In this document: positions 25,655-32,682 of the stretch, in pieces
Layout: each line of letters begins with the position of its first letter
Position numbering within the stretch: the first letter of the stretch is position 1
Assembly (NCBI RefSeq): GCF_000009905.1
Contig: NC_006177.1
Span: forward strand, 2,170,001-2,234,000
DNA: 64,000 nucleotides
From: Symbiobacterium thermophilum IAM 14863
GTDB taxonomy: Bacteria; Bacillota; Sulfobacillia; Symbiobacteriales; Symbiobacteriaceae
Direction: 5' to 3'
Notes under the pieces: model-generated
The model's input: only the letters and a program-made list of their open reading frames with translations
Database searches by the model: none
What the model was told of the DNA's origin: nothing
Program-made: the position numbers and the translations under genes

Positions 25655-27534
25655 ATCGAGTAGGAGGGGGCGGCTAGCCCCCGTCCTCTCACACCACCGG
25701 ACATGCGGGTCCGCATCCGGCGGTTCGCCAGGATTGACGAGTCGCTTCATAGCATTCGGTCAGGCTTATCAGCCCCTGGGCACGCCAGTAGGCGTCGCCC
25801 AGGGCGCTGTTTAGTGGGCCACCTGCCATCCGCCACGGGCCTTTGCGGCTGTTGGCGAGTTGGTGGACTACCCATTCGGGCAAACCGAGGGCGCGCAACT
25901 CCCGAAAGCGCGTGCGTACACGCTTCCACTGCTTCCATACGCATGCTCGCAGCCGACGCTTCAGCCATCCTTCGAGTCTTTCAAAGGCTGACCTGGCATC
26001 GGAGAGCGCATAGTACCCAACCCAGCCCCGCAAGTAAGCATTCAGGCGCCGGATTCGGTCCTCCATGCTCTGGCTGCGGTTGCGGTCCGTCAGCGTGCGG
26101 AGCTTGTCCTTCACGCGCTTCAGGCTCTTCGGGGCCAGCCGGATGCGCACTCCCCGGTGCTTGTAGAAACTAAACCCGAGGAACTGCCGCTTCCACGGCC
26201 GGTCCACTGCGCTCTTCTCCTCGTTGACCTTCAGCCGTAACCGCTCCTGCAGGAAGTGGCGCACGCTCCTGTAGACCCGTTCTCCCGCCCGCTTGCTGCG
26301 GACGTAGATGTTGCAGTCATCGGCGTACCGGACGAAGTGGTGCCCGCGGCGCTCCAGCTCCTTGTCGAGGTCATCCAGCAGGATGTTCGCCAGCAGCGGG
26401 CTCAGCGGACCGCCCTGCGGCGTCCCTTCCTCCGTCGCCACGACTACCCCGTTCAGCATGACCCCAGCCTGTAAGTACCGCCGGATCAGCCGCAGCACAC
26501 GCTTATCCGTTACCCGCCGCGCCACGCGGGCCATCAGCACGTCGTGGTTGACCCGGTCGAAGAACTTCTCCAGGTCCATGTCCACGACCCAGTCGTACCC
26601 TTCCTCCACGTACTGACGTGCCTTCCTGACCGCATCATGACCCCGCCGCCCCGGCCGAAAGCCGTAGCTGGATTCGGAGAATGTCGGGTCAAAGATCGGC
26701 GTCAGTACTTGCAGGAGTGCCTGTTGGATCAGGCGGTCCATCACGGTGGGAATCCCCAGCATCCGCTTGCCGCCGCCCGGTTTCGGGATTTCGACCCGGC
26801 GGACTGGCTGCGGTCTGTAGGTCCCCTGGAGCAGTCCCTCACGGATGCGGCTCCACTCCACGCGAATCTGGTCCCGCAGCCGTTCGGTGGGGACACCGTC
26901 CACGCCGGGAGCGCCTCCGTTCCGCTCCACCCGTTTCAGGGCGGCCAGCATGTTCTCCCTGGCCACCACCTGCTCCATCAGGTTGCTGTGCTCCCCGCGG
27001 GGTAACGTTCCGTCTTGTGCCGGCTGCCCACTCCGCCCTCTCGCCGTCCCTTGCGGCTTCACCGCTACCTCCGGCGAGCAGGTCCCGTTCGGGGTCTTCT
27101 GCGTTTGTCGCGGGCTGCTCGAACGCAACGGGTTCACCCCTTTCCTGACGTTCGGCCCTTCCCGGTTGGGGCGTCCCCCTGCCGGTACTATGGCCTTTGC
27201 TGACTTCTGCCGGTTCAGCTGCGTCTCCCGACGCAGGTTACCAGCGTTGCTGGCGTTCCCGGCAGATCTCCCCGGGTAAGAACGCTGACCTTCACCCCGC
27301 ACCCGCCCCATCTACCGCACCGCCCTTTGGCAGCTTCGGGTTTTGCTGTGTTCGGCCAGCTCACCCGAGCGGCACAGCCTCCTATGGGGTTCGTGTTCCT
27401 CGGGTCGTGGCTTTGCCTCGGGCTTCCTTCAGATTCCGCCTCACGACGGACACCCTTGCCTTTGGCTAACGGGCTGGTGCTGCCTCGCCCGTAGCGGACT
27501 TTCACCGCCAAGTCAGCGCCCATGCCGGGCACAC
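25655..27534 (-). mobile_element. group IIC intron
   Basis: The 5' end on the minus strand is GTGTGCCCGGCATGGGCG, the form typical of bacterial class C introns. The 3' end carries a domain V hairpin around GCCGGATGCGG and GCATGTCCGG and a domain VI GGGGGC/GCCCCC stem, ending near CTCGAT at 25655. The encoded reverse transcriptase fills most of the interior. The 5' exon is a hairpin (27542-27566) lying 7 nt from the splice site, which fits the known preference of group IIC introns for sites just 3' of terminator stems. Ends are read from motif and are accurate to a few bases. Confidence 0.88.
25689..26978 (-). CDS. ltrA: group II intron reverse transcriptase/maturase
   Basis: The protein splices the intron RNA and copies it into DNA. 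Reverse transcriptase motifs are in order: KPGGGKRMLGIPTVMDR, SESSYGFRPGR, VVDMDLEKFFDRVNH, EGTPQGGPLSPLLANILLDD and the catalytic FVRYADDCNIY. The maturase X domain (VGYYALSDAR onward) follows. No HNH endonuclease motif is visible, as is usual for class C. I start at ATG 26978 (429 residues) because the frame further upstream lies in ribozyme sequence. The frame is intact, so the intron may be active. Confidence 0.92.
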   Translation of the reverse strand: MEQVVARENMLAALKRVERNGGAPGVDGVPTERLRDQIRVEWSRIREGLLQGTYRPQPVRRVEIPKPGGGKRMLGIPTVMDRLIQQALLQVLTPIFDPTFSESSYGFRPGRRGHDAVRKARQYVEEGYDWVVDMDLEKFFDRVNHDVLMARVARRVTDKRVLRLIRRYLQAGVMLNGVVVATEEGTPQGGPLSPLLANILLDDLDKELERRGHHFVRYADDCNIYVRSKRAGERVYRSVRHFLQERLRLKVNEEKSAVDRPWKRQFLGFSFYKHRGVRIRLAPKSLKRVKDKLRTLTDRNRSQSMEDRIRRLNAYLRGWVGYYALSDARSAFERLEGWLKRRLRACVWKQWKRVRTRFRELRALGLPEWVVHQLANSRKGPWRMAGGPLNSALGDAYWRAQGLISLTECYEATRQSWRTAGCGPACPVV

Positions 27535-27566: not shown

Positions 27567-27587
27567 TTACTTTCTGTTAGTTGGTTG

Positions 27588-27617
27588 TTGTCTTTCAACC
27601 GTATGTTCCTTTACAAT
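27588..27617 (+). promoter_or_regulatory. promoter of the DsbA-like gene
   Basis: TTGTCT (27588-27593) and TACAAT (27612-27617) are 18 nt apart, about 33 nt before the ATG. The promoter starts just beyond the T-rich tail of the hairpin next to the intron, so the intron has not separated the gene from it. Confidence 0.6.
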
Positions 27618-27649
27618 GGACCAAACTATGCCAAAGGAGCGACGTGGGA

Positions 27650-28363
27650 ATGTCCAAGGCTAAAGGGGGGCGCTCCCTCAACCGGAAGAAGGACAGGAGC
27701 CTGTGGTGGGTCATCGGCGTCGCCGTGGGGGTCACCGCGGCGCTGATTGTGGCCAGCAACGTCACCGCCCGCAGACTGGGCGAGATCGTCCTGCCCAGCA
27801 TCATCCTCACCGACCAGGAGCGGGGCGCGGACCGGCACGTGCTCGGCAGCGCCGACGCACCGGTGGAACTGGTGGAGTTCAGCGACTTCCGCTGCCCGCA
27901 CTGCCGGGAGTCCCACGAGATCCTCGGGTCGCAGATCGAGGAGCTGGTCGCGGAGGGTACCGCCCGCTACGTCCGCAAGCACATGCTGGTGATCGACCCG
28001 TCCGACACCTCGCTGAACGCGGCCGAGGCCGTGGAGTGCGCGGCGGACCAGGGATACTACTGGGCGTTCCTTGACATGCTCTTCGCGAACCAGGCCGCGC
28101 AGGGGCAGAAGTGGACACGCGACGCGATGAAGACCTACGCCCGGGAGCTGGGGCTGGACACGAAGGCCTTCAACGAATGCATGGACCAGCAGAAGTACCG
28201 GGACAAGGTGCTGGCTGACAGCGCCGAAGGGTACAGCACCCCCGGCATCACCGGCACCCCCTCCTTCCTGGTGAACGGCGAACTGCTGCGCATCCGCAGC
28301 TACCAGGACGTCATCAGCGCGGTCCTGGCCGCGGCGGGCCAGTCCCCGGGGCAGGGGCAGTAA
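27650..28363 (+). CDS. DsbA/BdbD-like thiol-disulfide oxidoreductase
   Basis: The 237-residue protein is anchored by one N-terminal helix (about 19-38) and carries an extracellular thioredoxin domain with an inserted helical part. The active site is CPHC (SDFRCPHCRESHE), the form found in DsbA and BdbD oxidases. The cis-proline loop is GTPSFLVNG. It starts at an ATG with AAAGGAG 10 nt upstream. The convergent gene encodes another thiol-redox protein, the candidate selenoprotein. Confidence 0.9.
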   Translation: MSKAKGGRSLNRKKDRSLWWVIGVAVGVTAALIVASNVTARRLGEIVLPSIILTDQERGADRHVLGSADAPVELVEFSDFRCPHCRESHEILGSQIEELVAEGTARYVRKHMLVIDPSDTSLNAAEAVECAADQGYYWAFLDMLFANQAAQGQKWTRDAMKTYARELGLDTKAFNECMDQQKYRDKVLADSAEGYSTPGITGTPSFLVNGELLRIRSYQDVISAVLAAAGQSPGQGQ

Positions 28364-28372
28364 GGCACCCGC

Positions 28373-29035
28373 TCATTCCCGGGCGGCCTGCAGCAGCGCC
28401 GCCAGAAACCGCTCCTCCGGGCCTCCCCCTGCCAGGGTCACCCTCCGGGCGCCCTCGATGATGGTGTGGGGCACGGACCGGACGCCGTTGCGCCGGGCCA
28501 GCTCTCCAAACGCGGCGGCGTCCACGGCGTAGGCCCGGATGCGGGGGTTCTCCATCGCCGCCATGTGCGCCAGGCGGACCGCCTGGGGGCAGCGGGGTCA
28601 CGTCGGCGTCGAGTACACCTGGACGGTCAGGTCCCGGTCGACGGTGCGGACCAGCGCCCGGGCCGGCGGCGAGAGGCGGGTCTCCCCGTGGGAGACGTCG
28701 ATCAGGTCCTCCAGCAAGACCACCAGGTCCACGCCCATGGGCACGCCGTAAAAGCGGATGCGGGTGTCGCGGCCGGCGCCGTCCAGGAGGACGAGCGCCG
28801 GCGCCTGCTTCACGCCGTACGCGGCCGCCTCCGCCCGGGCTTCCGGCCCGGACCGGGCGACGACCCGGATCCGCCCGTCGGAGAGCGAGGCCAGATCGGC
28901 GAGCAGCGCGCGCAGGGCGGCGGTCGAACGATCGTGCTCGGTGGCGGAGAAAAAAACCATCTGCACCGGCGCCCGGAGGTGCTCGGCGAAGAGGCTGCTC
29001 ACCTGCCGGCGCTGGGCAGCGGACAACGCGACCAA
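28373..29035 (-). CDS. protein disulfide oxidoreductase with in-frame UGA (probable selenoprotein)
   Basis: Read through a single in-frame TGA (28600-28598), the frame gives a 220-residue two-domain glutaredoxin-like protein of the PDO family. The N-terminal domain has lost its CxxC: the site reads HDRS at 34-37. The C-terminal domain reads TVQVYSTPT-[UGA][11 protein letters not shown]. The UGA lies exactly where PDO proteins have the first Cys of CPYC, and the second Cys is kept at 149. A cis-proline loop (SVPHTII, Pro189) follows, and homology continues to the end. A hairpin with GGUC at its tip lies 17 nt after the UGA. I therefore read UGA as selenocysteine (U146xxC149). TTG start at 29035 follows GGGGAGGAA. 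A nonsense mutation is the alternative. Confidence 0.82.
28570..28600 (-). promoter_or_regulatory. candidate bacterial SECIS element
   Basis: Directly after the UGA, the mRNA forms a perfect 7-bp stem (28586-28580 with 28576-28570) with the triloop GUC, so the tip reads GGUCC. There are 17 nt between UGA and GGUC, close to the 18 nt in E. coli fdhF, whose SelB-binding loop also displays GGUC. It lies within the coding sequence, as bacterial SECIS elements do. Confidence 0.75.
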
Positions 29036-29336
29036 TCCACGTTCCTCCCCGGGAGCTCCCCTCTTGCGGCGGGAGCCCCTTTTCTATGGTTCCGTATTCG
29101 TGGCCTGGGCTTGCGGTCCCTGCCCCGCGCCCTCCCAGGCGTCCGGAACCGGGGCGCCGGAGCCGCCGGGCACACCCGGTCCCCAGTCAGGGGCCAGAAC
29201 GCAGGGTGGCAATATACGCAGAGATATTCCTTCAGTCCACTGCTCAGAAGAAGGATTATCTGATTTCATATCGAATTCGGACTTCACCGTTCCTGCTCAC
29301 GGCCTGCCGCGGCTCCGCACCGGGAGGTGTACACCT

Positions 29337-31410: not shown

Positions 31411-32682
31411 ATGATCCTCAAGACGACCCTGCGCGGCCAGGTCTACCAGTTCCGATCGGTCAAGGAGGTGCTCGCCAAGGCCAACGAGCTGCGCTCGGGC
31501 GACGTGCTCGCCGGGATCGCAGCGGAGACCGAGGCGGAGCGGGTGGCCGCCAAGCACGTCCTCGCCAACCTGACCCTGGAGGACCTGCGCAACAACCCGG
31601 TCATCCCCTACGAGGAAGACGAGGTCACCCGGGTCATCCAGGACGCGGTCAACGAGCACGTGTACCGGCAGATCAAGGGATGGACCGTCGCCGAGCTGCG
31701 GGAGTACATCCTCTCGGACAAGGCCGACGCCCAGGAGATCCAGCGGATCAGCCGGGGCCTGACGTCGGAGATGGTCGCGGCGGTGGCCAAGCTCTGCTCC
31801 AACCTGGACCTGATCTACGGCGCCAGCAAGATGCACAACGTCGTGCAGTGCAACACCACCATCGGCCTGCCCGGCACGCTCGCGATGCGGCTGCAGCCCA
31901 ACGACCCCGTGGACTCCATCGACGGCATCATGCCCCAGATCATGGAAGGGCTCTCCTACGGCATCGGCGACGCGGTGATCGGCATCAACCCGGTCAACGA
32001 CGATCCCGAGTCGGTCTCCCGGCTGCTGTGGGCGGTTTACGAGTTCATGGAAAAGTGGCGGATCCCGACGCAGCAGTGCGTGCTCGCCCACGTGACGACC
32101 CAGATGCGCTGCATCCGGGACGGGGCCCCCGTCGGCCTGGTGTTCCAGTCCATCGCCGGCTCGGAGAAGGCCATGGAGGCCTTCGGCGTCTCGGTGGAGA
32201 TGCTGGACGAGGCCCTGGAGCTGGTGCGCAAGTACGGTTCCGCCAAGGGGCCCAACCTGATGTACTTCGAGACCGGGCAGGGATCGGAGCTTTCGGCCGA
32301 CGCGCACCACGGCGCCGACCAGGTCACGCTGGAGGCCCGGTGCTACGGCCTGGCCAAGCGGTACCAGCCGCTCCTGGTCAACACCGTCGTCGGGTTCATC
32401 GGCCCGGAGTACCTCTACGACGCCAAGCAGGTCATCCGCGCCGGCCTGGAAGACGTGTTCATGGGCAAGCTCACCGGCATCTCCATGGGCTGCGACGTCT
32501 GCTACACCAACCACATGAAGGCGGATCAGCACGACATCGAGAACCTGGCCGTCCTGCTGACCGCCGCGGGCGTCAACTACTTCATCGGCGTGCCGATGGG
32601 CGACGACCCGATGCTCAACTACCAGTGCGGCGCGTTCCACGACGGCGCGGCCCCGTGGCGCATCACCAGATCCAGACCATGA
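31411..32682 (+). CDS. eutB: EutB, ethanolamine ammonia-lyase large subunit, C-terminally truncated
   Basis: EutB is the TIM-barrel catalytic subunit of the cobalamin-dependent lyase that turns ethanolamine into acetaldehyde and ammonia. Most of it is intact: LTSEMVAAVAKLCSNLDLIY, SYGIGDAVIGINPVNDDPES, MYFETGQGSELSADAHHGAD and GCDVCYTNHMKADQ. Normal EutB has about 455 residues. Here the sequence follows the family to MLNYQCGAFHD and then runs into a foreign tail (APWRITRSRP), giving 423 residues. The last helix is lost, and the 3' end overlaps a convergent membrane-protein gene by 20 nt. eutC is absent. The enzyme is probably non-functional unless completed elsewhere. Confidence 0.9.
   Translation: MILKTTLRGQVYQFRSVKEVLAKANELRSGDVLAGIAAETEAERVAAKHVLANLTLEDLRNNPVIPYEEDEVTRVIQDAVNEHVYRQIKGWTVAELREYILSDKADAQEIQRISRGLTSEMVAAVAKLCSNLDLIYGASKMHNVVQCNTTIGLPGTLAMRLQPNDPVDSIDGIMPQIMEGLSYGIGDAVIGINPVNDDPESVSRLLWAVYEFMEKWRIPTQQCVLAHVTTQMRCIRDGAPVGLVFQSIAGSEKAMEAFGVSVEMLDEALELVRKYGSAKGPNLMYFETGQGSELSADAHHGADQVTLEARCYGLAKRYQPLLVNTVVGFIGPEYLYDAKQVIRAGLEDVFMGKLTGISMGCDVCYTNHMKADQHDIENLAVLLTAAGVNYFIGVPMGDDPMLNYQCGAFHDGAAPWRITRSRP

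Follow-up and report, generated by a model that had tools for sequence, protein, structure and literature searches.

The DNA analysed here, referred to as the window, is a stretch of 64,000 nucleotides from Symbiobacterium thermophilum IAM 14863 (contig NC_006177.1, positions 2,170,001 to 2,234,000). On its minus strand, a reading frame runs from position 29035 to 28373 and is open from a TTG start codon to a TGA stop codon (28375–28373), except for a TGA at 28600–28598. When this codon is read as selenocysteine (Sec, U), the frame specifies 220 residues, with the sequence STPT-U-PRCPQAV at positions 142–153 and U146 as the first residue of a U-P-R-C motif. We predict that the gene encodes a Sec-containing protein disulfide oxidoreductase (PDO) of the TIGR02187 family. 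A gene caller unaware of Sec would end this gene at the UGA. The frame, its single in-frame UGA and the surrounding peptide had been described in an initial annotation of the sequence, and all of the coordinates given there proved correct. As read from the sequence, a Shine-Dalgarno-like GGAGG (29044–29048, minus strand) lies 8 nt 5' of the TTG start. A GC-rich inverted repeat, GGGGCTCCC ... GGGGAGCTCCC, is located directly 5' of this ribosome binding site (29045–29080, minus strand).

The predicted protein matched the TIGR02187 profile (PDO_seleno_TRX) over positions 3–208 of 209 (E=1.7e-53). Its score of 181.1 bits falls narrowly under the NCBI curated cut-off of 185, which is an annotation threshold and not a biological feature, whereas orthologues from the same genus (196.6), order (206.5) and class (271.1) pass it. 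No other full-length TIGR02187 gene is present in the genome. The protein also gave an end-to-end match to the Pyrococcus furiosus PDO structure 1a8l (E=5.6e-33), and resembles this protein and the Sulfolobus PDO (SsPDO) in having two thioredoxin units, with Sec146 and Cys149 at the site of the C-terminal CxxC. It differs from the archaeal proteins in carrying Sec for the first Cys of this site and DRST for the N-terminal CxxC. The initial annotation had placed the UGA at the first Cys of a CPYC motif, and the alignments with 1a8l, where it coincides with the leading Cys of the C-terminal CPYC, and with 28 homologues bear this out. The second Cys and the cis-Pro loop are intact after the UGA, as had been claimed (U-P-R-C, then S-V-P-H), and the reported loss of the N-terminal CxxC is seen in the replacement of CQYC in 1a8l by DRST. 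The two-active-site feature of archaeal-type PDO is therefore absent from the window protein; many bacterial homologues have the N-terminal CxxC, and others lack it. In AhpF, the N-terminal domain consists of two fused thioredoxin folds, of which the second alone is redox-active. The window protein shares this arrangement with the AhpF domain (1zyn, 1hyu), but stands alone without the flavin reductase part and has Sec. AhpF N-terminal domains also match the window protein, more weakly than do TIGR02187 and 1a8l.

Scanning genome contigs with the protein yielded two loci only, and the homologue set was therefore drawn from 61 genomes belonging to the same class, among them that of the window; 30 of these gave matches. 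The alignment comprised 28 sequences, including the window gene and one from the contig scan. At the Sec column, 21 of the 28 have TGA and the remaining seven TGC or TGT, hence UGA or Cys throughout, and P-x-C follows in all. Although nonsense mutation or sequencing error can leave a lone TGA in a frame that is open elsewhere, so that the gene might be a broken Cys-type PDO gene, the recurrence of TGA at the same codon in separate assemblies argues against this. The three nearest aligned relatives retain the TGA at protein identities of 48–68%, a conservation that is far beyond chance. When the window gene was compared with two relatives from the same genus, identity was equal on both sides of the TGA (51/74 after it and 95/143 before it with L024; 46/74 and 87/145 with L025), and third codon positions were the most variable on both sides. 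The frame after the TGA has thus not decayed in close relatives. The equal identity and third-position variation effectively exclude a nonsense mutation or sequencing error and, together with the full Sec machinery described below, leave the broken Cys-type gene a negligible probability. The same observations bear on whether the TGA is a real stop, in which case only the 145-residue N-terminal unit would be made and the downstream part would be unused or form a separate ORF. UGA does terminate in this code, and partial termination at Sec codons is normal. However, the N-terminal unit is without any CxxC, protein identity does not drop beyond the TGA, and the downstream ORF, which starts from a GTG at 28601, lies in a different frame. 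We consider a real stop to be very improbable.

The genome searched is a single contig of 3,566,135 bases. The initial annotation had named selA, selB, selD and tRNA-Sec as the genes to look for, and all four are present: selA (612 bits), selB (379 bits), selD (380 bits, itself containing an in-frame TGA) and a tRNA-Sec with the anticodon TCA (71.4 bits). A GrdA gene contains one in-frame TGA, and a gene for a DsbG-like protein (L063, genome contig 2753751–2754215) has TGA in a UxxC site (U-P-G-C). Judged by gene content, the Sec-decoding pathway is complete and is used by several genes. Two thioredoxin reductases scored above the cut-off in the genome. One of them immediately precedes selB, in the same orientation and with about 95 bases between the two (genome contig 1185145–1187998; L009, L054), and these genes are perhaps co-transcribed.

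A probable apical hairpin of a bacterial SECIS element, CCAGGC-GGUCC-GCCUGG, is located at 28570–28586 on the minus strand, 14–30 nt downstream of the first UGA base, and has a stem of six pairs in the window gene. Among the 21 UGA genes, 112 of 126 stem pairs are formed, compared with 79.7 (sd 4.3) expected from random synonymous recoding that leaves the peptides unchanged. None of 2000 such simulations reached 112 pairs, a count that is not a strict probability because related sequences share history. In a thinned set of 16 UGA genes, 87 of 96 pairs are formed against 61.7 (sd 3.7) expected. By the same synonymous recoding, the seven Cys genes show no excess (25 of 42 pairs, 23.6 expected). 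The stem has changed on both sides in L027 (U-A) and in L041 (C-G and A-U), is shifted in L033 and L035, and is found only in a displaced form in L030. The second base of the apical loop is G in 21/21 UGA genes and also in 7/7 Cys genes, so that the enrichment of stem pairs is the telling part. In this GC-rich DNA, the folding energy of single sequences is unremarkable (z −0.5 to −1.9), and we therefore place weight on the comparative result.

Given the Sec machinery, the conserved UGA or Cys and the SECIS-like hairpin, the selenoprotein reading is strongly supported and as firm as sequence allows, with Sec insertion a prediction. Taken as a whole, we hold with very high confidence that the best explanation is a cytosolic two-unit PDO of the TIGR02187 family, in which the C-terminal UPRC site is the sole redox site and the UGA is read as Sec. 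This corresponds to the textbook Cys-to-Sec pattern, confirmed in a thermophile. The comparative set gained, 21 Sec and seven Cys forms within one class, introduces no new principle.

The initial annotation had proposed a probable new selenoprotein of PDO type with a UxxC site. Its assignment as a UxxC selenoprotein of PDO type holds, but the claim to novelty does not, as the Sec form was already published in 2006. Zhang et al. (2006; PMC1794560) included among the selenoprotein families one of two members, named ‘Homolog of AhpF, amino-terminal domain’. Their Table 3 gives 12 selenoproteins for S. thermophilum, as printed: FdhA (3), SelD, GrdA, GrdB, HesB-like, AhpF N-terminal domain, peroxiredoxin, SelW-like and DsbG-like; a member of the AhpF N-terminal domain family is also listed for Carboxydothermus hydrogenoformans (PMC1794560). 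The TGA-containing GrdA, SelD, DsbG-like and window genes agree with the S. thermophilum list, and L063 is probably its DsbG-like selenoprotein. Since the window gene is the sole full-length TIGR02187 gene in the genome, the AhpF N-terminal domain entry very probably refers to it. Reviews of 2022 and 2026, citing an earlier survey, identify the family as TIGR02187 with the motif UxxC and give ABB15282.1 as an example (PMC9312934, PMC13188914). We find no essential difference between the window protein and this family, whether termed homolog of AhpF, amino-terminal domain or Grx-like domain protein: the family model, the UxxC motif with Sec first and bacterial Sec decoding are the same. That the family had not been described before, as might be supposed from the initial annotation, which knew of no Sec form, has next to no likelihood in the light of the 2006 survey entry, the two later inventories and the very name of the NCBIfam model, PDO_seleno_TRX. 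The TIGR02187 family is already known in Sec form, whether or not the 2006 entry is this locus.

The conservation of the UGA and the machinery of the genome suggest that the codon would be read as Sec by SelB and Sec-tRNA(Sec), guided by the hairpin just 3' of it. By analogy with archaeal PDO, the selenolate of Sec146 would then attack a substrate disulfide or a peroxiredoxin intermediate, and Cys149 would resolve the selenenylsulfide. In Sulfolobus, peroxiredoxins are reduced by PDO, which is itself supplied by NADPH and thioredoxin reductase; thiol-transferase activity resides at the C-terminal site and isomerase activity needs both sites (PMC7465337). On the same archaeal model, which also supplies the likely partner and substrates, the enzyme might be re-reduced by the cellular thioredoxin reductase. 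Since the N-terminal CxxC is absent in the Symbiobacterium group, the UxxC site should be solely responsible for redox activity, and the window protein should act as a one-site reductase via Sec146 and Cys149. Isomerase activity is not expected, because in SsPDO it needs both sites and the N-terminal one is DRST here. We tentatively suggest, as a possibility somewhat short of even, that the one-site PDO of this group, with Sec in the site that is left after loss of the N-terminal CxxC, has become specialised in donating electrons to peroxiredoxins or other reductive partners and no longer works as an isomerase. A one-site Sec PDO subtype is not singled out in the selenoprotein and PDO literature cited here, and we regard the missing N-terminal CxxC of the Symbiobacterium-group proteins as a modest variation on a known family.

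Elsewhere in the window, a eutB gene (31411–32682, plus strand) departs from its profile after position 411 of 461 and continues with unrelated residues to the end. EutA and an EutS-like ORF are present and EutC was not found anywhere in the genome; ethanolamine ammonia-lyase looks incomplete. Convergent with the selenoprotein gene is a gene for a DsbA/DsbG-like thioredoxin-fold protein in Cys form (RCPHC; 27581–28363, plus strand), which matches PF13462 and, weakly, NF041057. This arrangement is found in three Symbiobacterium-group genomes (those of the window, L021 and L025), and the conserved pairing hints at a functional link between the two genes. Adjoining the DsbA-like gene is a group II intron with a reverse transcriptase/maturase and matching Rfam domains (25655–27450, minus strand).
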